This document shows, in pieces, positions 15,655 through 38,680 of a stretch of DNA of 39,791 bases. The number at the start of each line of letters is the position of its first letter. Position 1 is the stretch's first letter. Below the pieces are notes generated by a model that worked only from the letters and a program-made list of their open reading frames with translations, did no database searches and had not been told where the DNA came from. The stretch spans positions 1 to 39,791 of the forward strand of contig JAKSLO010000010.1 of the NCBI GenBank assembly GCA_024401185.1, given 5' to 3'. The position numbers and the translations under genes are program-made. The stretch is from Bacteroidaceae bacterium (GTDB lineage: Bacteria > Bacteroidota > Bacteroidia > Bacteroidales > Bacteroidaceae).

Positions 15655-15843
15655 ATGAAAGAAAAGAAAATCTACGAGAAGCCTAAGTGCGTGATGTTCC
15701 TTCCGGACATGGGAAATTTTTGCAATCTCGTCGTCAACAGCAACGAAGATTCAGGCCTGCCCAACATGTGGGTAAAGGAAGACCTGATTGACATGGATGA
15801 CACGGATGACTGGACCTTCGGAAGCCAGGAGTCGGAGCTGTGA
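15655..15843 (+). CDS. Small acidic peptide of the MKxxxYxKP type upstream of a BspA-like gene
   Basis: This 62-residue peptide begins MKEKKIYEKPKCVMFLPD and ends in an acidic stretch with tryptophan (MDDTDDWTFGSQESEL). No signal peptide is seen; two Cys are present (C12, C23). It lies 32 bases upstream of the 1405-residue LRR protein gene in the same direction, so the two are very likely co-transcribed. It shares the basic MK..YxKP start, length class and acidic W-containing end with the peptide at 7006-7161, which accompanies the other BspA operon. The function is unknown. Confidence 0.65.
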   Translation: MKEKKIYEKPKCVMFLPDMGNFCNLVVNSNEDSGLPNMWVKEDLIDMDDTDDWTFGSQESEL

Positions 15844-15875
15844 TAACAAGATTCAACAAAAACAAATCAAAAAAA

Positions 15876-18800
15876 ATGAAAAAGTACTTCAACATCAAAA
15901 AGCTATCGCTGGCAATACTATTCCTTGCCACTGCGATGCCAGCGTTCGCGCAGAGAGAGGAGAGAATCACCTCCATGCCTGAGCTGGAAAAACGTGAGGG
16001 AAATTACATCATCAAATCCACCGAGGACTATGAGAAGTTCCGTCAGATAGTAGCCTTAGGCAATCCGTACGCCAACGCCGTGCTCGAAGCCGACATCAAG
16101 GTAACGAAGTCTATCGGCGATGGTGACACTCCGTTCCACTACCGTGGCACGTTCGACGGCCAGGGACATACCGTCACGCTGGAAGACGAAAACAATACTG
16201 AGAATTACAATTCCACGCTCAGTGGCCTCTTCAAGTACACGGAAGCGGGCTGTGTCATTCGCAATCTTCACGTTTCGGGGCATGTGTTCCCTCAATCGGA
16301 AACACCCACATACGCAGGCTCCATCGTGGATGACGCTACCGGTACGACAATCGAGAACTGCATCAGCGACGCCGTGCTATACGGCGACCATGTCCGTGGC
16401 GGACTTGTCGGCATCGCACGTGGTAAATGCTTCCTCGACAACAGCGCCTTCATAGGCAGAATACCCCAAGGGGAGTCGCTCCGCAGCGGCCTCGTTGGAA
16501 ACAACACGCAGTCCATCAGCATGAAGAGCTGTTATGTGGATGTCGATTTCGGCTATCAGTTAGGCACGGAATCCGAACCTGACGTGTTTGCCAACAGACT
16601 GGACATAGAAATCTTGAACAACTACTTCACATACCATTATAAAGACAAAAATGGCGACATCAACCTTATGAACGTACCCTTTGAAGGCAAAGTCACTGAC
16701 GACGAAGTCAAGAACGGCACCCTCTGCTACAAGCTCAACAGGAACGGTCGCAAGGGAGTCGTATGGTATCAGCACGGTGATCATCCCTATCCGTTCAAGG
16801 GCTCGGATGGGCAGTTAGTGACAAGCACGGATAGTGGCAGCACCATTGAGAAAGGTACGTCCGAATGCAGCCATGAGTATGGCAACGATTACGTTTGCCA
16901 CAAATGTGGAGCCGTACAAGAGGGCGTGTCGATAGAACCATTGCAGGCTCGAAACAGCTACAACAAGGAAAATGGCACGGTCAGCATTGACAACATCAAG
17001 TACCAAGTTTCGAATAAAGGCGAGGCAACCGTGCTGGGCTTAGAATGGACTTCTGCAGCCGTACACATACCAGAGAACATAAATATTGATGGAACTGTAT
17101 ATAATGTCACATCAATCAGCGAGAATGCCTTCGAGGGCAATATAGGATTGGCATACTGCTACATTCCAAAGTCCGTGAAATCGATTGGCAGGTACGCGTT
17201 CTTGAAATGCAAACTCGAGTACTTGCACATTGCTGACGGTCCGTATTCAACAAACAAAGCGGACATCAAGGAACATGCCCTCAAAATAGACATCAAGGGC
17301 TTGTACGATAGTAATATAGATAAAATATATGTCGGAAGAGATTTGATGTGGGACAAGGAACCCATGGAGAGTACTCACGACAATGCGTATCTTAGTCCAT
17401 TCTTTTACAACCATCAGTTATTTGAGATTCATTGGGGCCCCAACGTGTCACAAGTGGGCAACCTGCTTAACGATGAAGAAGACCAGTTCCACTATTTTGA
17501 CAATTACAGCAAAATACACAAAGTCGTCTTCATGGGCAACGAGCATTCTCTCAACAACGAGCTGCTACTAACCACCCAAAGTATCTGGACTGACTTTACA
17601 AATTGGACTGACTTCTACATCAACCGCAACATCAACGGCAAGTACATTACCCCCGAAGTTGAGGATGCAGGACTGCTGTACGGCTGCAAGGCCGTCACCT
17701 ACGGACCATATGTAAAATCCATCCCCGACAATTCCTACAAGAGAGTTGGCGAGAACTATAAACCTCTTAAGACTGTGGACCTCAGCCATGCATTTAACTT
17801 GGAGTCCATCGGTCAGAATGCTTTCTATAATTGCGAAAACATTGAATGCGGCCTCGACCTTTCCACCACAAAGGTGACGACCATTGGCGAATTTGCTTTT
17901 GCAAACAGTGGTTTCCGCTCAGCTGTCTTCAACGATGAGACTACCACCATCTCGGAAAGAGCTTTCGAGAACTGCACTTCTCTGGAAGGCCTCTACATTC
18001 CAGCCTCGGTAGAGAGCATAGGTTCTAAAGCATTTGCCAGCTGTACAAAGTTGAGCCGAGTCATCTTCGACGATTCGGAGTGGGGACTGGAACTGAGCGA
18101 TGGCCAATTCGACAATTGCCCTAAAATCAGCAACACATACCTGGGACGTAGCATCATAATTTCTGGCGGTGCTACCTCGTCTTCGTTCCAGCCCAATTCA
18201 AGCAATATATGGACCATTGGCCCTAAAGTCACCTTCCTGCAGAAAGCCCTCTTCCCATTGGACAAGTACGACAGTTTCATTTTCCTCCATTCTGATGACG
18301 TATTGTATTTTGATGGAAGATTCAACGGCACGACCAACACGGTCACACTTGACAGAAAGTTGAGAGTAACAAGTTCCGATTCAGAACTGGGAACACTATC
18401 TCTACCTTTCAACCTCAACAAGTATAACCAGATAGAGAACATCAACATAGACGTTCATATCACAAAGATTCCTGCCAACATGTTTGCGGGATGTAGCAAG
18501 GTGAGAAACCTCTTTATTCCTGAGAACATAAAGGAAATCGGTGACAAAGCTTTCAAGGGCTGCTCCGCACTGGAGGTTCTCTGCATCATGGGCAAGCCCA
18601 ACGTAGGAAAATACGCCTTTGAGGGTGGCACCAACATGAAGTACCTCTACCTCGTAGGAGACACCATCAAGCTCGACGACGGTGCGTTCCACGACTGCAA
18701 GATCCAGGAAATCATTCCTGCCTTCACAAAAGACCCCGGCACAGGTTCCTCTGAGCATGCCTTCGACCCTTGGAATTACGCCTACACCCGTCTTGCCGTC

Positions 18801-20093
18801 AACAACGTCACTTTCAACACACAACCCTGGGTGAACTTCACCAAGAAGGGAACCGTAACTACGACATCCACCTTCAGCGGTCAGCCCGACGAAGAGCTCG
18901 GTACGCTCTACGACAGAGCATCCCTCTCCCACTCCTTCCCCCAGGGCCGCTTTGACATGGTGTATCTGCCCTTCGATATGGATTCCTACTATTTCGGAGT
19001 GGATGCAGAAATCTATCGTGTGGACGAAGACAACGACAAGTTCAGTAACACCTACACCATGGGCAACGATGACAAGTCGTTCGATGCAGAAAAGATTAGT
19101 CTTCAGAAGGTCAACATTGACACCCAGGAAACGCTCACCAAGGGCCACGTCTATCTGATAAAGACCAACGAAAAGGAAGAGAAACTGATTGCATACAACA
19201 ATCTCTTTCAGGCCAATGGAATAACATTGGCAGGCGGCAAGTACATCCAGCCCAAGAGCTCTTCTTCAAGTTCTATATTGGCTGCCGGCAATGTGAACGA
19301 GAAGCTGAATTCACTCAATCATTTTTATGTATGCGAGGATGGAGTCATCAAGTTCCACAACGGCGGCAAATACACCCCAAATCTGGCAAGCACAGGTTTC
19401 TATTTGGGAGATGACAATAACCGCCCCATTGCCTACAACCTTGTGGCAGGCAACGCGCTACTCCTGTCATCCAAATCCGACGTCGTCTTCCATCCGTATC
19501 TCGAGGGCTTCTCAACCTTCTACGATGCCGACTACCACCACATCGCCCCCGACTGGTGCGACGTCTATATCATCACAAGTGTAAACGACGGCAACGAGGT
19601 TTCGCTGGAGAAGATTGAGGACCGCACCATCACCAAGGGACAGGCCGTCCTGCTCAAGAGCCACAACAACGAGAAACTTCCCGACGTTCTCACCGAATAC
19701 CTCACCTATGCCACCAATGGCAGCTCATGCTCATTTGCAGGAAACCTCCTCAAGGGCGTAGACAAGGAGCAGACCGTTGGCGAACTGGACCGCGACTTCA
19801 TTTACGTGCTCGGCTGCAACAACGACTTCAAGAACGCTGGTTTCTACAAGTTCACGGCCGACAAGAAGATGACCAAGGGCAAGGCATACCTCGACCCCGA
19901 AGGACTCTCGCCCCAACAGCTGGCCAAGGCATGCCTCCTCGTGTGCAACGATGCTACAACACACATCACCTCAAGGCCTGCCGACAACGCAGACCGCACC
20001 TGGGGAATCTACGACCTCATGGGACGCCGACTCCGTGAAACTGGATACAAGGGCATCTACCTCATAGATGGCAAGAAAGTCATCAGAAAATAA
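15876..20093 (+). CDS. Giant BspA-like leucine-rich repeat surface protein
   Basis: This 1405-residue exported protein starts at ATG 15876, directly at its signal peptide (MKKYFNIKKLSLAILFLATA...AFAQ). A GLUG-like beta-helical region (about 30-230: YRGTFDGQGHTVTLE, SGLFKYTEAGCVIRNL, GGLVGIARG) is followed by a Cys/His knuckle CSHEYGNDYVCHKCGA (about 330). LRR_5 repeats come next (about 370-950: ITSISENAFEGN, YIPKSVKSIGRYAF, IPASVESIGSKAF), then a long beta-rich region. The C-terminus IYDLMGRRL...GIYLIDGKK resembles a type IX sorting signal. It is probably a surface adhesin. It is followed after 26 bases by a secreted hydrolase gene and belongs to the 15291-22960 operon. Confidence 0.85.
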   Translation: MKKYFNIKKLSLAILFLATAMPAFAQREERITSMPELEKREGNYIIKSTEDYEKFRQIVALGNPYANAVLEADIKVTKSIGDGDTPFHYRGTFDGQGHTVTLEDENNTENYNSTLSGLFKYTEAGCVIRNLHVSGHVFPQSETPTYAGSIVDDATGTTIENCISDAVLYGDHVRGGLVGIARGKCFLDNSAFIGRIPQGESLRSGLVGNNTQSISMKSCYVDVDFGYQLGTESEPDVFANRLDIEILNNYFTYHYKDKNGDINLMNVPFEGKVTDDEVKNGTLCYKLNRNGRKGVVWYQHGDHPYPFKGSDGQLVTSTDSGSTIEKGTSECSHEYGNDYVCHKCGAVQEGVSIEPLQARNSYNKENGTVSIDNIKYQVSNKGEATVLGLEWTSAAVHIPENINIDGTVYNVTSISENAFEGNIGLAYCYIPKSVKSIGRYAFLKCKLEYLHIADGPYSTNKADIKEHALKIDIKGLYDSNIDKIYVGRDLMWDKEPMESTHDNAYLSPFFYNHQLFEIHWGPNVSQVGNLLNDEEDQFHYFDNYSKIHKVVFMGNEHSLNNELLLTTQSIWTDFTNWTDFYINRNINGKYITPEVEDAGLLYGCKAVTYGPYVKSIPDNSYKRVGENYKPLKTVDLSHAFNLESIGQNAFYNCENIECGLDLSTTKVTTIGEFAFANSGFRSAVFNDETTTISERAFENCTSLEGLYIPASVESIGSKAFASCTKLSRVIFDDSEWGLELSDGQFDNCPKISNTYLGRSIIISGGATSSSFQPNSSNIWTIGPKVTFLQKALFPLDKYDSFIFLHSDDVLYFDGRFNGTTNTVTLDRKLRVTSSDSELGTLSLPFNLNKYNQIENINIDVHITKIPANMFAGCSKVRNLFIPENIKEIGDKAFKGCSALEVLCIMGKPNVGKYAFEGGTNMKYLYLVGDTIKLDDGAFHDCKIQEIIPAFTKDPGTGSSEHAFDPWNYAYTRLAVNNVTFNTQPWVNFTKKGTVTTTSTFSGQPDEELGTLYDRASLSHSFPQGRFDMVYLPFDMDSYYFGVDAEIYRVDEDNDKFSNTYTMGNDDKSFDAEKISLQKVNIDTQETLTKGHVYLIKTNEKEEKLIAYNNLFQANGITLAGGKYIQPKSSSSSSILAAGNVNEKLNSLNHFYVCEDGVIKFHNGGKYTPNLASTGFYLGDDNNRPIAYNLVAGNALLLSSKSDVVFHPYLEGFSTFYDADYHHIAPDWCDVYIITSVNDGNEVSLEKIEDRTITKGQAVLLKSHNNEKLPDVLTEYLTYATNGSSCSFAGNLLKGVDKEQTVGELDRDFIYVLGCNNDFKNAGFYKFTADKKMTKGKAYLDPEGLSPQQLAKACLLVCNDATTHITSRPADNADRTWGIYDLMGRRLRETGYKGIYLIDGKKVIRK

Positions 20094-21523: not shown

Positions 21524-22960
21524 ATGAAAAAGTTAGTTTCCATGTTTGCCTTTATAGCAACAATCACGCTTGGTGCATTCACTTTGGCATCATGTGGCGA
21601 TGATGAAGTAACCCCTTCTACTCCCTCCCAGCCACAGGGTCCTACTTCTAGTTGCAAGGTTTCTGTGAGAATCGACCACAACGCCAACCCCAATCCGTTC
21701 GCCTCCACCGACAAGGACGCAGAGGATAAGGTAATCCAGGAAGTCGAGAGCCTCATGCTCCAGGCACTCGAAAACACTGAAGGCATAGTAAAGAAATACG
21801 GTGGCTATTATTACGAGGACAGCAAGGAAGATCAGGTTTTGAGCGCCATCCGCGCTTCCATGGACAAACTCGAGCCAACCATCAAGAGCAAGAAGCTTGA
21901 CCTGGACGGTCAGCTCGTCTGTGAGGTGTCGGGAGACGGATTCAAAACAATATGGATAAAGGCGTTCGAATATACCCAGTCCTTAATCAGCTTCACCTAC
22001 AAGGACATCAACTACTGTGCCATCAATGACAGCGAGGTCGGCGTAGTGATAAAGCCCAGAAACGGCCTTGGCGATTCTGCCTACGCGGGCGACATCGAGA
22101 TTCCCGAGACCGTCGAGAACGATGGCAAGACATACACCGTCACTACCATTGGTCCCAAAGCATTCTATAACTGCGGCATCACAAGCATCGTATTGCCCAA
22201 GACCCTCACCACGCTCTACAACGGCTGCTTCTGCTACACCAAGAGCTTGACGTCAATCACCCTCCCTGGCAAGCTCAACAGCTACAAGGAATCCTCAGGC
22301 TATGCTACATCCTCTGCGACAAGTCCCATTTTCGACAATAGCGCTATAACCGAGGCTGTGCTTGAGGAAGGCATTACAACCCTGTGCGAAAAGATGTTCG
22401 ATGGAGCTGACAAATTGCAGAAAGTAGTTCTGCCAAGTACTGTCACCGAGATTCCCAATCAGTGCTTCTCTCGCTGCCAAAATCTGAGCGACATCACGGT
22501 AAATGGTGTCATCACCAGCATAGGCGCACAAAGCTTCTATCATACAGCCATCAAAGACCTCTCAGTCTTCAAGTTCAAGAATGCCTCAACCGAAAAATGG
22601 ACATTCTACAAATGCGATCAACTCGAGGAAATCAACATCCCCGAGGGTATGGCATCGATCGGCACCAGATGCTTCTCATACTGCGAGAATGCCACCTCTG
22701 CCACCATCCCTGCAAGCGTGACATCAATGGCTATCGGCATCTTCGAAAGCTGCAAGGCATTGAAAGAGATTCATGTCAAGGGTGACAAGCCCGCCACTCT
22801 CGAAGAGATGACTCTTGACAGTGGCGAATATACCTGCACATTCTGGAAACTCGATTTCACTGCCCAAGGCATCACCATCTACGTTCCTGCTGCCAGCGTT
22901 GATACATACAAGAAGGCTCCTGTATGGTCAAAGTACGCTGACTACATCAAGGGGGAGTAA
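21524..22960 (+). CDS. BspA-like leucine-rich repeat lipoprotein
   Basis: This 478-residue lipoprotein has lipobox TLASC within MKKLVSMFAFIATITLGAFTLASC, followed by a GDDE acidic start and a Pro/Ser/Thr linker. After a region of about 120 residues come LRR_5 repeats (about 195-440: TTIGPKAFYNCGITSIVLPK, LPSTVTEIPNQCF, IPEGMASIGTRCF, IPASVTSMAIGIF). The closing segment VPAASVDTYKKAPVWSKY is typical of BspA-family proteins. The lipid anchor, rather than a type IX-like tail, sets it apart from the other two LRR proteins. It is last in the operon: a repeat array starts two bases after its stop and a terminator follows. Confidence 0.85.
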   Translation: MKKLVSMFAFIATITLGAFTLASCGDDEVTPSTPSQPQGPTSSCKVSVRIDHNANPNPFASTDKDAEDKVIQEVESLMLQALENTEGIVKKYGGYYYEDSKEDQVLSAIRASMDKLEPTIKSKKLDLDGQLVCEVSGDGFKTIWIKAFEYTQSLISFTYKDINYCAINDSEVGVVIKPRNGLGDSAYAGDIEIPETVENDGKTYTVTTIGPKAFYNCGITSIVLPKTLTTLYNGCFCYTKSLTSITLPGKLNSYKESSGYATSSATSPIFDNSAITEAVLEEGITTLCEKMFDGADKLQKVVLPSTVTEIPNQCFSRCQNLSDITVNGVITSIGAQSFYHTAIKDLSVFKFKNASTEKWTFYKCDQLEEINIPEGMASIGTRCFSYCENATSATIPASVTSMAIGIFESCKALKEIHVKGDKPATLEEMTLDSGEYTCTFWKLDFTAQGITIYVPAASVDTYKKAPVWSKYADYIKGE

Positions 22961-29050: not shown

Positions 29051-32000
29051 TTAATTTTCAACTTTGTTGCTGTATTCTTTTCGCTTCTTTCCGAGTTTGC
29101 TGACAGCCTTTGCCACGGAGCTTACGTTGTGGGCAGGTTCGGCAGAGAGCGCAGAGTTGACAATCTGCTTTACGTCGGCACACTCTATCGTGCCGTTGCT
29201 GTCAGCATCCAACGCGCTGTTGTCTACCACATACACGGTGTTCTTGTCGCCATCCTTCGTGAGCACGGGAGCAGCATCGCTGCCCAGCTGCTGATACCAA
29301 GCCTGTGTGCCGTCGGTAGCGCCTGGGGTCCAGTTGCCCTCGTCATCCACGCTGCCGTTGAGCTGGCAGGCCATCTCGCCCGACGCGAAGCGGTCAGCGG
29401 CTACGCCGGTCTCGCAGAGATAGAAGGTGCCTTCGTTCAAGCCGATGGCTGGAAGGGATGAGGTGTTGGTGGAGTAGCAGTTCTTGATGAAACTGTCATT
29501 TGTATTGCAACCGCAGATGCTACCTACGTTCGTGGTTCCGCTTACTGTGGCGGTGGTGTAGCAGTTCTCGACATTGCATATGTTGTTATTACGAGAAATA
29601 TTGCGTCCGCAAATTCCACCAACACAAGTACCACCACTTACAGATCCCATTGAATAACAGTTCTTAGCGGTACTTCCAGTTGACGTCTGGCCTGTAATAC
29701 CACCAATATAATTACCAATTCCTGTGACACTACAATCACTCCAGCAATTATTTATTTCTGACGAGGCTGTATTTAGTCCGTTTATACCTCCCACAGCATT
29801 AACACCATTGATAAAGCCGGAGGCATAGCTGTTTAAGATTCTACCGCCGTCAATAACCCCACAAATAGCACCTACGCTGCCATACCCATTAAAATAACAA
29901 TTTATAATACTGATGTTTTCAACACAACTATGTACCCCGTAACCGATAAACCCTACACCACTTGTGTTCGGTTCATTGAAGTAGAGTCCGCTGATAGTGT
30001 GTCCCTGGCCATCGAAAACTCGATAATATTTTCTATCACTATTTCCTATTGGTGTCCAGCTGCGAGGTGTACTTGTGGTTGATGCACCTCTTGCAGTGAA
30101 GTTTCCATCGGCATCAAAGGTACCGTCATTCACCACAATATCTGCAATCAATTTGGCATTAGAATAGTTATATCCTGAATTGTATCCTTCTGCGAACCAA
30201 TACAGCTGACCAACATTACCGATTTCGAACCAACTGTCAACTAAGTCTGCGGGTTGGTAAATAGGCACGTGGCATTCATCGCAATGACCAAAACCATTCT
30301 CGTCGAATGTGTTAGATGCATGTCCCTTGGCAGAAATTTCAAAAGTATGTTTGTCTGTGCCGTGAAAAGCAGCGTCATTATCATTTTCATAAATCGCCTC
30401 TGCCTGCCACACCTCAACACCCTTCTCGGTACATGTTGGGGCAACATAGCCTTCCTCCAACTTTGTAGGGGGAAGAGTCTCCTCACGAGAAACACGTTCA
30501 TTGCAGCTATGACAAACTAATTTGTATTCGCAATAATATCCATCGTCATTATGTACCCAATAATAGCTAACCTCATAGCCATTTTCATGTCCATGACCTA
30601 TTGCCTTGTCCTTTTCCTCTGTGCTATAGTATACAAGGCCATTTTTCGCGTCACAACGACTACATTTATAATAATATTTAGCATTTCTTGTGCAAGTGGC
30701 GGGCTGTGCAAGATAATCCGCAGTAGTGGTGAAACTACTGAAATCGTGTTTGAGGGCAGGAATGACTATGTCATCTATTCTTGCCGTACATCCTTTGTGA
30801 GTACATACAGCATGCTTGATGCCTGTGGTGGTACAGGTGGCAGGAGTGTCAATAATTTCGTCGTATGTATGCGCCTCGAAGATGGCGGTATAGCCCTTAC
30901 TTGCGGTCACGGTAATCGTGCGCGAAGCATGGGTGTCGCCATCAGTCCAGCTCACGAAGTGGTAACCGGTATTGGGCGTGGCGGTGATGGTTTGCTTCGA
31001 GCCATAGTCGTATGTGCCAGCACCGCTGACCGTACCTTGGTTCTTCCAATAATCAGCAACACTTAGCGTGATGGTGCGCGGTTCGCCAGCGAAGATGGCA
31101 GTATAGGTCTTGTCCCCCATCACGTCTATGGTGCGCGTGGCATGGGTGTCGCCATCATCCCACTGCACGAACTGATAGTTTTTATTTGGCTTGGCAGTGA
31201 TGGTGGCCTTTGTGCCATAGTTGAATGTGCCACTGCCGCTGACCGTACCAGCTTCGTCGTTATTCGCCTTCACGGTGATGGTGTGCTGGTCGATGGCGAA
31301 GTAAGCATGATAGGTGGTACATTCTTCTGTCACGGTAATTGTGCGCGTAGCATGGGTGTCGCCGTCTCCCCATTTTACGAAATGGGCGTGCTCGTCGGGT
31401 ATGGCTTTGATGGTTATCTTAGAGCCATAGTCGTATGTACCTGTGCCTTGCGTCGATCCGGGGGCCCCGTATAACGAGGTGACCAAGATATGGACTCGGT
31501 CGATGGCGAAAGAGGCAGTGAGATTGACATTATCAGTCAAACCTACGTTGTGCGTCTGTGCACCATTGTCGCTCCAGCTGCCGAAGTGGTAGTGCTCAGC
31601 CGTGGTAGCCTCCACCTTGAGCTGGGTAGGCGTGGTGCTGGTGGGGTTGACGTAGCTCTGGCTCACCTTGCCGCCAGTGCCAGCATTGACGCTGACGGTA
31701 ATGGCGGTGCTGGTGGCAGAGGTCTTGCCGTTACCGAGAGCTTTAGCAGCCACACCACTGAGGTAGTTGTTATTTTCAATGCCATTGGGCACCTTGCCCT
31801 TTGGCTGACCGGCGATAGCACCCACGTATGTACCGCTGCTTGGGCTGATGGTGCCGCTGCAGAAGCAGTTGCGGATGTACTGGAAGTTCTGGGCATCGCC
31901 ATCATCGTCGGCATAGCCCAGGATACCGCCCAATGCATTAGGACTTGAGGCAGAGGTGGTGATAGAACCAGAGAACCAGCAGTACTCTATCTGCACGTTG

Positions 32001-32617
32001 GCGTTCTTCTCGGCATAGCCCAGAATTCCACCGTTGCTGTCCGAGCAGCTGCCCAGGGCCATCGTGCCGCTATAGGTACAGCCCTTTATCTGCGTGGTAT
32101 AGCCGCCCGACAACAGGAGTATCTGTCCCACCAAACCACCGACGTGGTTCTTGGCTGCCGTCATGTTGACATTGATGCCACTATATACATTATACAACTT
32201 TGTATTGCCCTTGGCAGAGCCTACCACCGAACCCGTATTGTTGTAGGCCGACGACAGCGTGCCGGCGAGGGTGACGTTCTGGATGGTGGCACCATTGGTG
32301 TAGCCGAAGAAACCGCAGTTGTCGCCTGTAGCTGTGATGCTGATGCCCGAGACCTTATATTTCTGTCCGTCGAAGGTGCCGGTATAGGGTTTGCTGCTGG
32401 TGCCTATAGGTGTCCAGCTGCCCGAGAGCGTGATGTCGGCGGTGAGTTTGCCTATGGCATCTGTCTCGCCCCCATTGACCTTGTTGGCGAATGCCTTCAA
32501 GTCGGCAGCACTGCTGATGTTGTACGTCGTAGCTGCCCATACCTCCGTGGGCACAAGCCATGCCAGCAGCATGACTATTGTCATGAGCGGGCGTAGAAGA
32601 TGTCTGGTTTTGTCCAT
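29051..32617 (-). CDS. Mosaic surface adhesin with GLUG, InlB-type repeats and a dockerin-like segment
   Basis: This 1188-residue exported protein has a signal peptide (MDKTRHLLRPLMTIVMLLAW...VWA). GLUG-type units occupy about 30-300 (GGLVGQ, GGILGYAE, GAIAGQ). Four Listeria-Bacteroides (InlB B-type) repeats occupy about 310-590, each with a variant of GTYDYGSK...GDTHATRTI. A Cys/His-rich stretch (about 595-790) carries several CxxC and CTHKGC knuckles. A second GLUG block (about 800-1060) follows, then a single EF-hand-like DADSNGTIECADVKQIVN resembling half a dockerin repeat, and a basic end (KKRKEYSNKVEN). The typical 'DLSGRK' tail is missing. Attachment or matrix function is inferred. No promoter consensus was recognised upstream. 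Confidence 0.8.
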   Translation of the reverse strand: MDKTRHLLRPLMTIVMLLAWLVPTEVWAATTYNISSAADLKAFANKVNGGETDAIGKLTADITLSGSWTPIGTSSKPYTGTFDGQKYKVSGISITATGDNCGFFGYTNGATIQNVTLAGTLSSAYNNTGSVVGSAKGNTKLYNVYSGINVNMTAAKNHVGGLVGQILLLSGGYTTQIKGCTYSGTMALGSCSDSNGGILGYAEKNANVQIEYCWFSGSITTSASSPNALGGILGYADDDGDAQNFQYIRNCFCSGTISPSSGTYVGAIAGQPKGKVPNGIENNNYLSGVAAKALGNGKTSATSTAITVSVNAGTGGKVSQSYVNPTSTTPTQLKVEATTAEHYHFGSWSDNGAQTHNVGLTDNVNLTASFAIDRVHILVTSLYGAPGSTQGTGTYDYGSKITIKAIPDEHAHFVKWGDGDTHATRTITVTEECTTYHAYFAIDQHTITVKANNDEAGTVSGSGTFNYGTKATITAKPNKNYQFVQWDDGDTHATRTIDVMGDKTYTAIFAGEPRTITLSVADYWKNQGTVSGAGTYDYGSKQTITATPNTGYHFVSWTDGDTHASRTITVTASKGYTAIFEAHTYDEIIDTPATCTTTGIKHAVCTHKGCTARIDDIVIPALKHDFSSFTTTADYLAQPATCTRNAKYYYKCSRCDAKNGLVYYSTEEKDKAIGHGHENGYEVSYYWVHNDDGYYCEYKLVCHSCNERVSREETLPPTKLEEGYVAPTCTEKGVEVWQAEAIYENDNDAAFHGTDKHTFEISAKGHASNTFDENGFGHCDECHVPIYQPADLVDSWFEIGNVGQLYWFAEGYNSGYNYSNAKLIADIVVNDGTFDADGNFTARGASTTSTPRSWTPIGNSDRKYYRVFDGQGHTISGLYFNEPNTSGVGFIGYGVHSCVENISIINCYFNGYGSVGAICGVIDGGRILNSYASGFINGVNAVGGINGLNTASSEINNCWSDCSVTGIGNYIGGITGQTSTGSTAKNCYSMGSVSGGTCVGGICGRNISRNNNICNVENCYTTATVSGTTNVGSICGCNTNDSFIKNCYSTNTSSLPAIGLNEGTFYLCETGVAADRFASGEMACQLNGSVDDEGNWTPGATDGTQAWYQQLGSDAAPVLTKDGDKNTVYVVDNSALDADSNGTIECADVKQIVNSALSAEPAHNVSSVAKAVSKLGKKRKEYSNKVEN

Positions 32618-33051: not shown

Positions 33052-33759
33052 TCAGTTGTGTACCAGGGTACCGATCTCCTCGCCATCCATTACGCGCTTC
33101 AAGTTGCCCAAGATGTCCATATTGAAGACGTAGATAGGCAGGTCATTCTGCATACACATAGCAGTAGCAGTAATATCCATCACCTTGAGACCCTTTGCAA
33201 TGACATCCTGATAAGTGATGTCGTGGTACTTTGTAGCAGTAGGATCCTTCTCTGGATCGGCAGTATAAACACCATCCACACGAGTACCCTTCAGCATCAC
33301 GTCAGCCTCAATCTCGATGCCACGAAGGCTACTACCCGTATCAGTAGTGAAGTAAGGACTGCCAGTACCAGCACTCATAATAACCACCTCGCCGTTCTCC
33401 ATAGCCTCGATGGCCTTCCACTTGGTGTAGAACTCACCGATGGGTTCCATACGGATGGCAGTAAGCACACGGTTCTTCTGGCCGATAGCACCCAAGGCAC
33501 TGCTCAATGCCAAAGAGTTGATAACGGTGGCACACATACCCATCTGGTCACCCTTGACACGATCAAAACCATTACCGGCACCAGTCAGGCCACGGAAGAT
33601 GTTACCACCACCAATAACGATACCTATCTGCACGCCCATCTCTGCAATCTCCTTGATCTGTGCAGCATATTGATTAAGGCGCTCTACATTGATGCCCTGC
33701 TTCTGTTCGCCGGCAAGACTCTCACCACTAAGCTTTAAAAGAATACGCTTGAATTTCAT
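33052..33759 (-). CDS. pyrH: UMP kinase
   Basis: This 235-residue cytoplasmic amino-acid-kinase-fold enzyme phosphorylates UMP to UDP. It has LLKLSGESLAG at the N-terminus, GGGNIFRG, the DTGSSLRGIEIEADVMLKGT region, and VDGVYTADPEKDP. The length is usual. It lies 48 bases behind the Cthe_2159-type gene with no recognisable promoter in the gap, so it may be read from the surface cluster. A strong hairpin ends it. It is split from frr, its common neighbour in many genomes, by the 33808-37971 cluster. Confidence 0.96.
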   Translation of the reverse strand: MKFKRILLKLSGESLAGEQKQGINVERLNQYAAQIKEIAEMGVQIGIVIGGGNIFRGLTGAGNGFDRVKGDQMGMCATVINSLALSSALGAIGQKNRVLTAIRMEPIGEFYTKWKAIEAMENGEVVIMSAGTGSPYFTTDTGSSLRGIEIEADVMLKGTRVDGVYTADPEKDPTATKYHDITYQDVIAKGLKVMDITATAMCMQNDLPIYVFNMDILGNLKRVMDGEEIGTLVHN

Positions 33760-33807: not shown

Positions 33808-35025
33808 TTACTGCGTAATGACAGCATCAACAGTACCTCCGTTGTTGGTATAGGCTCCACCAACTTTGATACCACGGCTCTTCTTACCAGTATTCTTAAC
33901 CACGACAGTACCACCGCTGACGGTAAGGTTGCCATCCACCTTGATACCCATGCAACGATGAGGATCATCCACACACTCATCAAGGGTACACAAAGCACCA
34001 GAAGCCACGATGTTGATATTTGTCTCGGCATCAGCACTGCTAATGGTCATGCTACCATCAGTCTGAATGCCTCTTGAACCATTACCCTTTGCCTGCAAGT
34101 CGATATTACCACCACTGATGGTTACGTCGCCATCGGTCTTGATGCACTTGCAGTCTTGATTTTTCACGATACCCGTAATCGAACCACCCTTGATGATAAC
34201 CTGTCCGTTCTTCTCCTCGTTAACATCAATGGCGCCATTATCAGTCAGCAAAGTCTCAACCTGAATGCCATCGCCTTCGGTATTCTCGTCAAAGGTCACT
34301 TCTCCACCATTCATTTGGAAATATTGACCAACATGGAAAGCATCGCTCTTGGCCATTGCGATGTTGATCTTTCCGGTACTCTTCTTCAATTGCAGGTACT
34401 CTTTGGTAGAGACAGCATGACGCGCATTACCACTGACGGTAAGCGAACCAGAGCCCTCTACTTCAAGGTGACCCTTGCAATACAAGCAAGCCTTCTGGCT
34501 TCCGGTGGCTGCATCAGCAAGTACATTGGTCGTGCCAGCACTTAATACCATCGAAACACGTTTACCGCACTGAATGTCAATAGGTGCTCCAGTTGTACTG
34601 GTCAAATTCAGTCCGTCAAGAATAAAGGTACACTTATACCCACCTTTGTAGGTCAGACTACCATTGGCGCTTGTACCAGAAAGCACAAACTCGCATTCGT
34701 TCTTCAAATTGTTATTGGTAATAACAACATCTGCACCATTCACGGTAGCCGTTACATCCGTTGCCACCGATGCAGGTATGTTCACCACGGCACCATTGGC
34801 GCTGTAAGCCACCGATACCTGAGGTACAACAATAATACTGTCGATAGCGGACATGGCATAACTCTTGCCACCTATTGTAATATTGCTTCCGTCAGCAGTC
34901 ATCTCGCCTACCTCGGCAATATTCACGACCTTGTCTTCACCATCCTGCCAGATGCGCATGTGAGTCTGTGCATGCGTGGCAACCTGTGCCAAAAGGGCCA
35001 ATATAAATAGAGTACACTTTTTCAT
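33808..35025 (-). CDS. Cthe_2159-type carbohydrate-binding beta-helix protein
   Basis: This 405-residue exported protein starts at ATG 35025, one base overlapping the TGA of the upstream gene (TGATG), so translation is coupled. A signal peptide (MKKCTLFILALLAQVATHA) is followed by a degenerate domain (about 20-90) and a parallel beta-helix with repeated units such as GDVTISGGNIDLQAKGNGSR, GNLTVSGGTVVVKN and SRGIKVGGAY. This is the pattern of the Cthe_2159 family, whose founding member binds cellulose and polygalacturonate. It is encoded with VTC and DUF4956 proteins, a combination also known in other phyla, usually with CotH, which is absent here. Confidence 0.75.
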   Translation of the reverse strand: MKKCTLFILALLAQVATHAQTHMRIWQDGEDKVVNIAEVGEMTADGSNITIGGKSYAMSAIDSIIVVPQVSVAYSANGAVVNIPASVATDVTATVNGADVVITNNNLKNECEFVLSGTSANGSLTYKGGYKCTFILDGLNLTSTTGAPIDIQCGKRVSMVLSAGTTNVLADAATGSQKACLYCKGHLEVEGSGSLTVSGNARHAVSTKEYLQLKKSTGKINIAMAKSDAFHVGQYFQMNGGEVTFDENTEGDGIQVETLLTDNGAIDVNEEKNGQVIIKGGSITGIVKNQDCKCIKTDGDVTISGGNIDLQAKGNGSRGIQTDGSMTISSADAETNINIVASGALCTLDECVDDPHRCMGIKVDGNLTVSGGTVVVKNTGKKSRGIKVGGAYTNNGGTVDAVITQ

Positions 35026-35480
35026 CACTTGCTAAACTTTATGGTTTGCTTACCCAGATTTACTACATACACGCCAGACGCATACTTTGACAGGTTAACA
35101 CGGGTTTCTCCCTCCACGTTAACCATGCCCTGCAAGGCACCACCTGCATTGTAAATACGAAGCAGTCCATTGCCTTGCGCAATTAAAACACCATTGACAA
35201 CCTTCAGCGCCTCGCTTTCTTCTGCCATATTCTCAATGGCAGTAGCAGTGTTGCCAAAGAACATCTTCTGCAATTCACTTTGGGGAAACGTCACCTCTCC
35301 CTCACTGGTTGTCACCACCACTTGTTTTTCACTCACATTGAAAGTGATCTTCTGGATGGTTGCCAATTCGATGCTCTTCTCAGACGAGCTGGTAGCAACA
35401 GTGAGATACTTATAGTCGCTCTGCGCCATAGCAAAAGATGACAAGGCAAAAGCAACCCAACTTAACACTATCTTTTTCAT
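35025..35480 (-). CDS. Small secreted protein with type IX-like C-terminal domain
   Basis: This 151-residue protein has a signal peptide (MKKIVLSWVAFALSSFAMAQ). Its middle resembles the N-terminal part of the next protein (YKYLTV...KSIELATIQKITF compared with MRIWQDGEDKVVNIAEVGEM). Its final 50 residues (LLRIYNAGGALQGMV...SKYASGVYVVNLGKQTIKF) look like a type A type IX sorting domain. It is translationally coupled to the beta-helix gene. It may be a secreted anchor or partner subunit; no catalytic residues are visible. Confidence 0.7.
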   Translation of the reverse strand: MKKIVLSWVAFALSSFAMAQSDYKYLTVATSSSEKSIELATIQKITFNVSEKQVVVTTSEGEVTFPQSELQKMFFGNTATAIENMAEESEALKVVNGVLIAQGNGLLRIYNAGGALQGMVNVEGETRVNLSKYASGVYVVNLGKQTIKFSK

Positions 35481-35518
35481 TCGTATTTCTGTTTTATTCT
35501 AATTCACAGACTCTCACT

Positions 35519-35552
35519 TTTCCCCGAGCATCCTCCGTATTTCTCGGGGAAA
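35519..35552 (-). other. Intercistronic stem-loop
   Basis: TTTCCCCGAG (35519-35528) and CTCGGGGAAA (35543-35552) form a perfect 10-bp stem between the DUF2490 gene and the small secreted protein gene. No T tract follows on the minus strand, so it may be a processing or stability element rather than a terminator. Confidence 0.55.
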
Positions 35553-35581
35553 CCTCGTAGGAACATCGGGGGAATGTCGAG

Positions 35582-36358
35582 TTAAAAATCGTAACTATAA
35601 CCAATGCTTACGGCATGCATTGCCTCGTAAGGATGTTGCATTCTGTCCAATGTGAGGACATAAGACAACGACACATCGTTATGCTTGTTAATCTTATATT
35701 CAGTACCCACGCACGTACGCAACTTATCAAGGTTCATGTGCTCGCCTACGGCCACATTGTTGTGAAACTCTACGGAAACAAAAGGAGACCAGTCCAAACG
35801 CTTCTTGTCAAGCTGGAATTTAATGCGTGAACGCAGTACCTGACGACTGTTGCAGTCCTTGTATTTCACGTCTGCCTCGTCCATGTAATAGGAATATTCG
35901 CCCGTAGTAGCATCCAGACCTTCACACTCATAGCGGTCGATATGCTGACCAGCACGATGGGTGAACTGATAACGTACCCTACCTGAAATGCGAAGCCACT
36001 TCCACAATTTCACAGAACTGTTGGCATCAACACACAAACGGTTGCGATGTGACCAATAACTGGGAGTAAGCCATTTCTTGCCGGCATTTTCTTTGTTGTA
36101 GTCAAACATTAACGCATAACCCGCACTGAACTTCAGGTACTTGTTCGCTTTGTAACTCAGACTTGGACTCAACGAAAGGCGGTCAACCGTTTGACAATTA
36201 TCCATCGTTCGAAGTTCAGCTTCCAATCCTATGTCCCAGTTTCGGGGCAGACTCTTTGTGGCACCCAGTTCAAGCCACGCACCGAAGTCGTCTTCATTAC
36301 CTGCCCAAAGGGCAAAGGGAAATGAGAGAAACAATAATGAAAACAATATCTTCTTCAT
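35582..36358 (-). CDS. DUF2490 outer-membrane beta-barrel protein
   Basis: This 258-residue exported protein has a signal peptide (MKKILFSLLFLSFPFALWAG) and alternating amphipathic strands (NWDIGLEAELRTMD, WLRISGRVRYQFTH, LRSRIKFQLDKKRL, KHNDVSLSYVL). It ends in phenylalanine (IGYSYDF), the usual outer-membrane barrel end. Members are of unknown function. Its place between an inner-membrane DUF4956 protein and exported surface proteins suggests an exit or anchoring role for the cluster (inference). Confidence 0.85.
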   Translation of the reverse strand: MKKILFSLLFLSFPFALWAGNEDDFGAWLELGATKSLPRNWDIGLEAELRTMDNCQTVDRLSLSPSLSYKANKYLKFSAGYALMFDYNKENAGKKWLTPSYWSHRNRLCVDANSSVKLWKWLRISGRVRYQFTHRAGQHIDRYECEGLDATTGEYSYYMDEADVKYKDCNSRQVLRSRIKFQLDKKRLDWSPFVSVEFHNNVAVGEHMNLDKLRTCVGTEYKINKHNDVSLSYVLTLDRMQHPYEAMHAVSIGYSYDF

Positions 36359-36425
36359 AACGATAGTGAATTGTAAAAAGAGGACTATAATTTTGCTGTA
36401 AAAAACAAAATAACCTGCATATAAG

Positions 36426-37127
36426 TTATTTTGCCCTGGGCAGACGAGTCAAGTTCATCATACTGCTACCCTTGTCCATCTTCTCATCATAGAAAATGCG
36501 GATCAGCACGCTATCCTTGAGGAAATCAATGGTACCCACTTCGATAGACAGAATCTTCAAGCCTGTACGCTTTTCAAGGTCTGCAATCAACTCGGCGCGC
36601 TTTTCGGGTGCCACCAAGTTTACATTGTCGTACTTGATGTACTTTGAGCAAGAATCATTGATAATCTTACTGCTTTCAAAGAGCCATGCCAAGAAGATAA
36701 AGAACAAGTTAGCGAGTGTCAGAGAAAGGATATTCTCCCAATGCATCTTGACCACCATTGCGTTAACCACACTGATAGACACGAGCATAAAGAGGTAAGT
36801 CATCTCGCGGATGGGTATAGCCTCGGTTCGGTAACGTATGATACCAAAGATGGCAAACAGACCCAAGGCTGCGCCAGTCTTCATCTTAGAGCCTTCCATC
36901 AGACTAACAAGCAAGAAGATGCTCATTGCCATGATGATAAAGATAAACAGATAGTCACGACGCTTGCTCTTAGGGTAGTAGAAAAAACGTGCAATAATAC
37001 CAACCATCACAAAGTTGACGGCCAAACGAATCAGCAAGGAGTAGAAATCATCCATGTGTCCTAATCCTAAACCCAAGAAGGTTTCGCCCATTACGTCTTC
37101 TAGGGGATTCTCCAAAATTTCTTCCAT
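36426..37127 (-). CDS. DUF4956 inner-membrane protein
   Basis: This 233-residue protein has about four membrane segments (roughly 31-50, 59-78, 108-126, 131-150), the family signature IRYRTEAIPIREMTYLF (about 97-113), and a soluble C-terminal domain (about 155-233, LIADLEKRTGLKILSIEVG). In yeast, Vtc4 polymerase works with small membrane subunits that pass polyphosphate through the membrane. A comparable pairing of this protein with the VTC-domain neighbour is an inference. The gap to the VTC gene is 76 bases. Confidence 0.85.
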   Translation of the reverse strand: MEEILENPLEDVMGETFLGLGLGHMDDFYSLLIRLAVNFVMVGIIARFFYYPKSKRRDYLFIFIIMAMSIFLLVSLMEGSKMKTGAALGLFAIFGIIRYRTEAIPIREMTYLFMLVSISVVNAMVVKMHWENILSLTLANLFFIFLAWLFESSKIINDSCSKYIKYDNVNLVAPEKRAELIADLEKRTGLKILSIEVGTIDFLKDSVLIRIFYDEKMDKGSSMMNLTRLPRAK

Positions 37128-37203
37128 AATATTTAATTTAATTAGTTTTATTCAAAAATTGATTGATTCATGCTGTTGTATGTCATCCTTATTCTAGTGT
37201 CCG

Positions 37204-37971
37204 TTACTGCAATGGACTTCCTACCAATCTGCCAATCTTGACCAATTTCGGTTTGAAGAGGTTTTGCTTCAGCGACTGGTTTGTCAGCACGCTTCCGATG
37301 CAGTACTTGCTGAAACCACTGGGCTTGATGCGAAGCTGTCGCAACATATCCAGAACCGGACTGAACACATTACCATCTCGCTTCAACTCTATGATAACGA
37401 GTTCACCTGTTCCGATATCCTTGCCAGTTTCGTAATTATGAAACGACACGTCAAAGTCAATCGTCAGTCGCTCTGTCTTGGCATAATTCACCAAAGTGAT
37501 ACGGTGGAAGTTATTCTGCACCGTCTCGTGAATGTCACTTACCTGCTTATTGACACGCTCCATCAAGAACTCCTGTTGCTCTTCTATCTGTCCCTGTCCC
37601 GGCACCTCCACACGCTTCTTCTTGGTACGTCCATGGTTATTCTTGGTCTTTACTTCCAGAAAGGTCACACCACTGTCCATATATGTGCGCACACGAACCT
37701 TCTGCCTAGGTGCACGTCCATTATGATGATCCATGTAGAAGTGATGGTCTTCGGTATCCCAGTATGTGGTACGATAAGAGGCAATTCTGCTACCGGCATT
37801 GAACTGTGCGTAGTATTTTCCTTGTGCCAATTCGAGCAAGGCAGCCAACTGAACTTTATTCGTAACAAACTTCTTGTCCGTACGATTCATCAAGCGAATG
37901 GAAGACATCTCCTCCAGGGTGATGGGGTCCAATTGCTCCAATAAGTTCTCTATTCGCTTATCAATATCCAT
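37204..37971 (-). CDS. VTC-domain (polyphosphate polymerase-type) protein
   Basis: This 255-residue protein with a VTC/triphosphate-tunnel fold is predicted to be cytoplasmic. Basic and acidic tunnel residues are visible: R30-T-D-K-K34, KVRVRTY (K91, R93, R95), FLEVKTK (E106, K108, K110), KKKRVEV, and the closing IIELKRDG. In yeast Vtc4 this fold makes polyphosphate from ATP; bacterial members are largely uncharacterised. It is first in the minus-strand cluster with a TACATTTG box upstream, back-to-back with frr. The length fits a stand-alone VTC domain without SPX. Confidence 0.85.
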   Translation of the reverse strand: MDIDKRIENLLEQLDPITLEEMSSIRLMNRTDKKFVTNKVQLAALLELAQGKYYAQFNAGSRIASYRTTYWDTEDHHFYMDHHNGRAPRQKVRVRTYMDSGVTFLEVKTKNNHGRTKKKRVEVPGQGQIEEQQEFLMERVNKQVSDIHETVQNNFHRITLVNYAKTERLTIDFDVSFHNYETGKDIGTGELVIIELKRDGNVFSPVLDMLRQLRIKPSGFSKYCIGSVLTNQSLKQNLFKPKLVKIGRLVGSPLQ

Positions 37972-38119: not shown

Positions 38120-38680
38120 ATGATAGAAGTTAAGGAAGTTCTCGGCGCTGCCGAAGAGAAGATGGAAGAAGCTGTGATGTATCTTGAGGAAGCATTGGCG
38201 CATATTCGTGCAGGCAAGGCAAACACCAAGATTCTTGACGGTGTAAGAGTTGAAAGTTACGGAAGTTTGGTTCCCTTGAACAATGTGGCCAGCATCACCA
38301 CCCCCGATGCCCGAACCATTGCCATCAAGCCTTGGGACAAGAACATGTTCCGTCCTATCGAGAAGGCCATCATGGATAGTAGTGTAGGCATTACCCCCGA
38401 AAACAACGGTGAGATTATCCGTCTGGGCATCCCCCCATTGACAGAGGAACGTCGTAAGCAACTGGCAAAGCAATGTAAGGGAGAGGCTGAAAATGCAAAG
38501 GTAAGCGTTCGTAATGCCCGTCGCGACACCATCGACAAACTGAAGAAGGGTATTAAGGATGGCTTGTCTGAGGACCTTGAGAAGGATGCTGAGGACGAAT
38601 TGCAGAAAATGCACGACCGCTACATCAAGAAGGTTGATGAGCTTTATGCCAACAAGGAGAAGGAAATCATGACCGTCTAA
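38120..38680 (+). CDS. frr: Ribosome recycling factor
   Basis: This 186-residue cytoplasmic factor splits post-termination ribosomes with EF-G. The family features are complete: the N-terminal helix ending in [45 protein letters not shown], and the C-terminal helices ([34 protein letters not shown]-type end). The length is usual. rsgA follows after 115 bases, separated by a long inverted repeat. Confidence 0.97.

Follow-up and report, generated by a model that had tools for sequence, protein, structure and literature searches.

What could hold together a predicted polyphosphate-type polymerase, membrane proteins and secreted proteins in one bacterial gene cluster? The question is raised by the window analysed here, a 39,791-nt stretch (contig C2, positions 1–39791) of a 2.87-Mb Bacteroidaceae draft genome in 180 contigs, 83% complete. 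Five minus-strand genes, flanked by divergent frr/rsgA and by pyrH on the same strand, encode a VTC-domain protein, a DUF4956 protein, a DUF2490 protein, a 151-aa secreted protein and a Cthe_2159-type protein. A sequence-only reading of this DNA had proposed a system free of CotH kinases that makes an anionic polymer in the cytoplasm, passes it through both membranes and binds it at the surface. All five open reading frames (ORFs) are present in the order it gave. Four of the five proteins (VTC, DUF4956, DUF2490 and Cthe_2159) clear their Pfam cut-offs, and the tail of the small protein stays below its own.

Once corrected for CotH kinases linked in trans, the mechanism of that reading is the best single explanation of our data, and we hold it tentatively, at somewhat less than an even chance: synthesis by a polyphosphate-type polymerase, with export and surface binding of the product coupled to it. 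On the cytoplasmic side of the inner membrane, VTC would build a linear polymer of phosphate, most likely inorganic polyphosphate made from ATP. DUF4956, as its membrane partner, would move the growing chain through this membrane, and DUF2490 would provide the route through the outer membrane. The small protein, with its tail resembling those of the type IX secretion system (T9SS), would help to bring the Cthe_2159 protein to the surface or keep it there, and the beta-helix of the latter would bind the anionic polymer at this site.

A predicted tunnel-domain polymerase and its membrane partner

The VTC-domain protein (37204–37971, minus strand; 255 aa), a predicted cytoplasmic polyphosphate-type polymerase, matches PF09359 at 1.9e-26 (93.5 bits against a cut-off of 23). 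All 10 PDB chains matched by a profile built from 36 diverse VTC proteins were themselves VTC chains, with Vtc4 as the best match (3g3q, 3.6e-19), other Vtc4 entries down to 2e-12, Vtc2 at 1e-12 and Vtc3 at 4e-8. Twenty columns are invariant over the 36 sequences: R30, K34, Y70, D72, R89, K91, R93, R95, Y97, E106, K108, K118, R157, R168, T170, D172, E195, K197, S221 and K222. Seventeen of them are identical in yeast Vtc4 (R196, K200, Y241, D243, R264, R266, Y268, E279, K281, K294, R361, R373, D377, E426, K428, S457 and K458), while R89 and K91 correspond to alanines and T170 to a serine. The same 20 columns are at or near 100% across a wider alignment of 101 homologues. Vtc4 residues K200, R264, R266, K281, R361, R373, E426 and K458, which we take to be tunnel residues with a catalytic role, are aligned and identical in the window protein, whose tunnel-residue set is complete. 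Because these residues are invariant or nearly so in the 101 homologues and match catalytic Vtc4, the cytoplasmic polymer synthesis that had been proposed is well supported at the sequence level, and the window VTC is very probably an active polyphosphate-type polymerase.

In yeast, the VTC complex couples polymer synthesis to translocation, and in eukaryotic VTC complexes the catalytic subunit, or a protein associated with it, carries an SPX domain and a Vtc1-type membrane domain. The bacterial protein shares the tunnel domain of the yeast complex (Vtc4; PDB 3g3q, 8i6v and 7ytj), and coupling of synthesis to translocation is the analogy that we propose. It differs in having DUF4956 as its partner and two extra invariant basic residues (R89 and K91). 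Neither an SPX nor a Vtc1-type membrane domain was matched in the 255-aa protein or in the eight other window proteins scanned.

DUF4956 (36426–37127, minus strand; 233 aa; PF16316, 3.1e-49) is a predicted inner-membrane protein with several hydrophobic segments (residues 27–155) followed by a soluble C-terminal domain. Its description as a four-helix protein fits the hydropathy loosely and agrees with the account of a positional homologue in the available part of PMC12345266. R100 is present in 97 of 97 sequences and R98 in 96 of 97, a conservation compatible with anion handling. The DUF4956 profile had no match below E 0.6 in the PDB.

To survey the pairing, we used 198 Bacteroidales genomes drawn evenly across the order (the order sample), which gave 102 positives for VTC, 107 for DUF4956, 32 for Cthe_2159, 126 for CotH and 127 for PPK1. 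DUF4956 occurs in 98 of the 102 VTC-positive and in 9 of the 96 VTC-negative genomes (Fisher p 5e-40). Cthe_2159 is also enriched with VTC (24/102 versus 8/96, p 0.004), and PPK1 shows no association (64/102 versus 63/96, p 0.77). VTC is therefore not simply a substitute storage enzyme, and we rejected a general replacement of PPK1 by VTC, although the genome under study, at its 83% completeness, gave no PPK1 match.

For gene order, 100 VTC loci of the order sample were combined with the window into 101 loci, leaving out the 10 lowest-scoring VTC matches. Of the 101, 98 contain DUF4956 as well, mostly directly adjacent to VTC; two loci of clade 8 (L054 and L089) have genes between. The VTC proteins of the order form three groups, clades 0, 7 and 8 by cluster number, with median VTC–DUF4956 gaps of −4, 13 and 9 nt, respectively. 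The conserved co-occurrence that the sequence-only reading anticipated is thus found across Bacteroidales, and the gene order recurs in relatives. Among 14 named control genomes, VTC and DUF4956 matched exactly the same three, from three phyla (Bacteroides ihuae, Corynebacterium glutamicum and Methanosarcina acetivorans). CotH was matched in C. glutamicum, M. acetivorans and B. subtilis, and Cthe_2159 only in B. ihuae, which has no CotH match.

Envelope and surface proteins linked to the pair

The three clades differ in their linked genes, counted up to 5 kb from VTC and only on its own strand. Clade 0 (n = 65, window included) has DUF2490 in 44 loci, two small accessory families in 28 and 26, CotH in 16 and Cthe_2159 in 11. 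In clade 7 (n = 19), a 350-aa HlyD-type protein directly precedes VTC in 17 loci and CotH is present in 6. In clade 8 (n = 17), DUF4956 precedes VTC and CotH is present in 9. The HlyD assignment rests on a profile search, in which all 14 PDB matches were periplasmic adaptors (MacA, EmrA, AcrA and the like); when seven members were searched singly in Pfam, only two (L012 and L022) matched a HlyD family, with only one model reaching its cut-off. In 2 of the 19 clade-7 loci, the gene of a TolC-type outer-membrane efflux protein (OEP) either overlaps the DUF4956 end or starts no more than 10 nt from it. These loci contain tight runs of HlyD-type adaptor, VTC, DUF4956 and TolC-type OEP (L018:5955-11692 and L022:5937-9789, both minus strand), in L018 with the order CotH–HlyD–VTC–DUF4956–OEP. 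Each run could be a complete trans-envelope exporter built around VTC.

The joining of one VTC–DUF4956 core to different envelope-crossing parts is the best indirect sign of export. Passage of the polymer across both membranes is supported only indirectly, by DUF4956 as the constant partner, by the presence of DUF2490 at up to 5 kb in 44 of the 65 loci of clade 0 and by the HlyD-type adaptor of another clade. In synthase-dependent exopolysaccharide secretion, as of alginate and cellulose, a synthase works with an inner-membrane part, an outer-membrane porin and a surface part. The likeness to such systems (Pel, alginate and cellulose) is one of layout only; no glycosyltransferase was found here, and the synthase candidate is a phosphate-polymer enzyme. 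None of the 25 window proteins scanned matched CotH, pel or glycosyltransferase families. A wider scan took in 155 same-strand neighbour proteins of 110–1000 aa within 2.6 kb (105 from clade 0 and 50 from clades 7 and 8), and families matched by at least two proteins were reported. These included no pel family among the 155 and no glycosyltransferase family among the 105 unlabelled clade-0 proteins, so the polymer need not be a glycan.

Two small secreted families stand just before VTC in 28 and 26 of the 65 clade-0 loci (for example, L040:9262-9660 and L066:8728-9294). One is a 132-aa lipoprotein-like protein with no family over its cut-off and the other a 188-aa DUF2963/RHS-like protein. Hidden Markov models (HMMs) grown from arylsulfotransferase-like neighbours and from the small protein of the window both drifted to general T9SS tails, and neither was used for system counts.

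The DUF2490 protein (35582–36358, minus strand; 258 aa) matches PF10677 at 1.4e-26 (93.8 bits against a cut-off of 29.8) and by eye has a signal-peptide-like start. The family is listed as putative porins, TC 1.B.81, in the accessible text of PMC4827864, and the outer-membrane barrel claimed earlier rests on this family membership rather than on structure; a PDB search with DUF2490 gave no relative at E below 0.1. In Bacteroides thetaiotaomicron, BT3498 and BT3499 likewise place DUF4956 and DUF2490 side by side; the table row on them in PMC10434189 gives no function and lists a fold change with a value of 0.175, on which we do not rely.

The small secreted protein (35025–35480, minus strand; 151 aa) had been credited with a type IX-like tail. 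In the window sequence this T9SS type A-like tail is below cut-off in both Pfam (17.9 versus 27 bits) and TIGR04183 (20.1 versus 23). In its family alignment (n = 26, window included), TIGR04183 matches 20 of the 26 members at E ≤ 0.01 (best 1.5e-8) and the Pfam tail matches 18, and the genome encodes the T9SS component SprA (SprA_N, 737 bits).

The Cthe_2159-type beta-helix protein (33808–35025, minus strand; 405 aa from the ATG at 35025) matches PF14262 (1.2e-37) and PDB entries 4peu and 4phb (2.3e-12); the GTG start at 35028 given by ORF calling is probably one codon too early. The TGA of the small gene overlaps this ATG (TGATG), which makes the proposed translational coupling of the two genes plausible. 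The gap between them is −1 nt, compared with 76 nt for VTC–DUF4956, 67 nt for DUF4956–DUF2490, 101 nt for DUF2490–small and 48 nt for Cthe_2159–pyrH. Proteins of this family bind cellulose and polygalacturonic acid (PMC6712302, as far as its available text goes). The window protein belongs to the same family as Cthe_2159 of Clostridium thermocellum (4peu and 4phb) and differs from it by an added N-terminal stretch before the beta-helix; its own ligand binding is putative.

A surface location of Cthe_2159 is supported by two features, each judged in part by eye: the lipoprotein-like starts seen in relatives and the partner with its T9SS tail. In the window group the protein has a plain signal peptide and is accompanied by the separate T9SS-tailed small protein. 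In two relative loci with DUF2490 and Cthe_2159 and no small gene (L115 and L129), the Cthe_2159 start is lipoprotein-like, with acidic residues after the cysteine, and 6 of 10 other Cthe_2159 proteins of the order sample (L023, L026, L057, L065, L074 and L096) start likewise by eye. The pattern fits placement of Cthe_2159 at the surface by exchangeable anchors, but not in every case. We kept the argument to inspection by eye because a lipoprotein pattern search proved unreliable: it missed L026, L057, L096 and L115, and it flagged 5 of 32 relatives that have the small gene (L108, L134, L135, L145 and L146), whose starts look by eye like ordinary signal peptides with a cysteine.

A short N-terminal stretch may be common to the small protein and its Cthe_2159 neighbour, and inspection by eye suggests it in a second Cthe_2159 protein of this genome (L167) as well, a lead with weak profile support. 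Comparison of the small protein with the N-terminal module of Cthe_2159 in hhalign gave 93% with signal peptides and P 0.0019 without them; the score of 19.0 was reached by none of 200 column shuffles (best 18.7), and a reversed control scored 16.7. The genome holds two more Cthe_2159 proteins, on contigs C45 and C24 (L167 and L168), away from the locus.

The five-gene order recurs in close relatives, across 58–89% DUF4956 identity. Of 48 such loci, 40 extend 2.2 kb or more beyond DUF2490, and Cthe_2159 is present in 33 of these. Where both DUF2490 and Cthe_2159 were called (34 loci), 32 have a small secreted ORF between the two. One further locus (L136) is short and lacks a called DUF2490. 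Median identity among relatives is 71% for VTC, 62% for DUF4956, 37% for DUF2490, 44% for the small protein and 52% for Cthe_2159. The cytoplasmic and inner-membrane parts are thus more conserved than the outer-membrane and secreted ones, which we count in favour of export and display. The nearest named relatives are gut or rumen Prevotellaceae/Bacteroidaceae metagenome-assembled genomes (horse, yak, sheep, deer and others).

The linkage extends to the family level. Among 121 genomes sampled from the GTDB family of the genome under study (VTC in 66, Cthe_2159 in 65, CotH in 82), Cthe_2159 occurs in 60 of 66 VTC-positive and 5 of 55 VTC-negative genomes (p 3e-21). It lies on the contig and strand of VTC in at least 56 of the 66, at a median of 3.2 kb start to start, and downstream in all of these except G229. 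Of the other ten, six have no Cthe_2159 match, one (G270) has it ~6 kb away on the opposite strand, and three (G258, G261 and G291) have none on the VTC contig among the matches listed.

CotH kinases and competing explanations

The cluster had been described as CotH-free. This is correct for the locus, since the CotH model had no match in the 48 close-relative loci (flanks up to 8 kb, several shorter) or, as said, in the window proteins scanned, but not for the genome, which has four CotH matches elsewhere, at least one of them on contig C93. The C93 protein (L152) is secreted, Gly-rich and away from the locus. Across Bacteroidales, 31 of the 101 loci have a CotH gene in the orientation of VTC and no more than 5 kb from it. 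The window is a CotH-free locus of a wider VTC–DUF4956 family whose linked surface partner is often CotH or Cthe_2159. We considered mutual exclusion of these two partners at clade-0 loci (11 with Cthe_2159 only, 17 with CotH only, none with both and 37 with neither of 65; Fisher p 0.054) and do not claim it, because the tree needs only two changes.

Parts of this gene set are known from Gram-positive bacteria. In streptococci, clostridia and bifidobacteria, pel operons have CotH, polyphosphate polymerase and DUF4956 genes as neighbours (PMC7112168, in the part available). In Streptococcus intermedius, the accessible sections of PMC12345266 report that deletion of SIR_1592 or of SIR_1594 (CotH) lowered Pel-dependent aggregation, and describe SIR_1592 as four transmembrane segments with an intracellular ACT domain, its deletion raising Pel. 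We infer that SIR_1593, with its polyphosphate polymerase domain, corresponds to VTC and SIR_1592, by position, to DUF4956. The window resembles this accessory set in its adjacent VTC-type and DUF4956 families and its surface theme; it differs in its diderm host, in having no CotH or pel genes found at the locus and in carrying a putative outer-membrane barrel, a T9SS-tailed protein and Cthe_2159 instead. The same sections of PMC12345266 state that the three-gene synteny was not found beyond the Pel locus, in contrast to the CotH linkage of Bacteroidales reported above. VTC or polyphosphate-polymerase and CotH proteins are also mentioned for C. perfringens NELoc-2 in the available text of PMC2879425 and PMC11677781. 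In the open-access literature (subscription papers and preprints not covered), we found no experiments on a bacterial VTC–DUF4956 pair beyond PMC12345266. The VTC–DUF4956 gene set is known but uncharacterised; what is new is the diderm, CotH-free locus, the Cthe_2159 partner and the DUF2490 or HlyD/TolC-type export parts.

Several observations weigh against synthesis coupled to export and display. The PDB profile search revealed no sequence relation between DUF4956 and the membrane part of yeast VTC, and for deletion of SIR_1593 the available part of PMC12345266 reports no decrease in aggregation. In 14 of 65 clade-0 loci, some of them near contig ends, none of DUF2490, Cthe_2159, CotH or the small accessory families lies on the same strand within 5 kb. 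On a VTC–DUF4956 tree of 62 clade-0 loci, two changes suffice for Cthe_2159 linkage, with 10 of 11 cases in one group of 16, so that the linkage represents few independent events. The anchor picture also has gaps: the Cthe_2159 proteins of L021 and L024 begin like plain signal peptides, and no anchor was found for them; that of L037 has, by eye, a T9SS-like end to which no NCBIfam model matched at E ≤ 0.1, with a possible lipobox in its start; and L035 is cut by a contig end.

The abundance of CotH elsewhere in VTC-positive genomes supports an alternative that we consider unlikely but testable, namely that VTC–DUF4956 exports polyphosphate mainly as an extracytoplasmic energy or phosphate source for secreted CotH kinases, with Cthe_2159 merely holding or organising the polymer. 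CotH occurs in 86 of 102 VTC-positive versus 40 of 96 VTC-negative genomes of the order sample (p 3e-10) and in 62 of 66 versus 20 of 55 genomes of the family sample (p 7e-12), where the median number of CotH matches per genome is 5 versus 0. The medians are the same within T9SS-positive family genomes (n 62 and 23, p 5e-9), and VTC is the strongest term (t 8.5) when T9SS, genome size and GH43 count enter a linear model beside it. At genus level, the Spearman correlation of VTC with CotH reaches 0.78 for all 30 genera and 0.64 for the 19 with T9SS. By eye, all 15 high-scoring CotH proteins inspected, from 15 VTC-positive genomes including the one under study, begin with a signal-peptide-like segment, which in some requires an internal start codon. 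Two of the three control genomes with VTC and DUF4956 have CotH, and B. subtilis has CotH without VTC. The association has its limits: T9SS-negative family genomes show no CotH difference (4 versus 32 genomes, p 0.35), the trend is weak in genera of mixed VTC state, genomes are not independent and CotH matches can count one gene twice. Part of it may reflect lifestyle, because the GH43 count, our ecology control, rises with VTC as well (median 14.5 versus 6, p 5e-4; within T9SS-positive genomes, p 0.09; GH43 and CotH match counts per genome saturate near 18 and 16). Four VTC-positive family genomes (G165, G219, G229 and G244) have no CotH match, and all four have Cthe_2159; two of them, G219 and G244, are the genomes sampled (n 2) of genus 172, which forms a natural test case separating surface binding from CotH supply. 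We know of no polyphosphate-dependent CotH, and Bacillus CotH binds ATP/AMP according to the available part of PMC12189002.

The SIR_1592 phenotype, raised Pel with lowered aggregation, would suit an inner-membrane regulator or store, which we also judge improbable: short intracellular polyphosphate, or phosphate or nucleotide sensing, would tune surface-protein or polysaccharide output through DUF4956 (MgtC-like plus ACT-like) with no polymer export. Deletion of SIR_1593 without a reported defect (PMC12345266, within the text available), a weak, below-cut-off MgtC match of one clade-7 DUF4956 (L002) and the His_kinase (7), response-regulator (5) and LytTR (3) proteins among the 105 clade-0 neighbours point the same way, but a regulator or store leaves the tight linkage to periplasmic adaptors, a TolC-type channel and an outer-membrane barrel unexplained. 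A different chemistry is less likely still: with its tunnel fold, VTC would act as a phosphotransferase that modifies some other exported polymer, be it glycan or protein, with phosphate or chains of it, and would not produce free polyphosphate. The invariant basic residues R89 and K91 at alanine positions of Vtc4, the pel neighbourhood of the Gram-positive genes (PMC7112168, as above) and the matches to glycosyltransferase family 2 among the clade-7/8 neighbours (4 of 50 proteins) would suit it; the 17 of 20 invariant residues shared with the polymerase Vtc4 and the glycosyltransferase results for the window and clade 0 argue against it. Accidental neighbourhood of unrelated genes is highly improbable. 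Gaps of 67–101 nt between the first four window genes and the 35 of 62 clade-0 loci of the tree with neither CotH nor Cthe_2159 within 8 kb would allow it, but we rejected it on the pair association (p 5e-40) and on the conserved five-gene order, which recur across the order sample, the family sample and close relatives.

Synthesis coupled to export and surface binding thus remains the reading that we prefer, with conserved co-occurrence and intact tunnel residues in its favour and its CotH-free character amended. It suggests that in some bacteria a phosphate polymer may be made intracellularly and delivered to the surface. A bolder generalisation, which we regard as more speculative than probable and put well below an even chance, is that VTC–DUF4956 is a widespread bacterial synthase-exporter driving polyphosphate across the whole diderm envelope, through DUF2490 or through an HlyD-type adaptor and TolC-type channel, with the polymer either bound at the surface by Cthe_2159 or spent as the phosphate donor of secreted CotH kinases; the window would be the bound form, with CotH served in trans. 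If true, this would constitute a second bacterial route of polyphosphate synthesis and export besides PPK1, membrane-coupled as in yeast vacuoles. It would explain the joint role of VTC, DUF4956, DUF2490 and VTC-linked Cthe_2159 genes, and it would give extracytoplasmic CotH-type kinases a concrete supply route where ATP should be scarce.

Flanking genes and other features of the window

Downstream of the cluster by 48 nt, on the same strand, lies a pyrH-like gene (33052–33759, minus strand; AA_kinase, PF00696, 1.6e-32), probably a neighbour outside the system. The divergent flank, frr (38120–38680, plus strand; PF01765, 6.6e-66), encodes ribosome recycling factor and is likewise outside it. 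Promoter and terminator scans of the window gave results near chance level, and no Rfam families or tRNAs were found in it. Two adjacent, converging AAA ATPases of the ATPase_2 family lie at 4438–5580 (plus strand) and 5595–6731 (minus strand). Large surface-type proteins are encoded at 29051–32617 and 7179–9602 (both minus strand) and at 15840–20093 and 21524–22960 (both plus strand); one has InlB B-repeats and three have BspA-type leucine-rich repeats.

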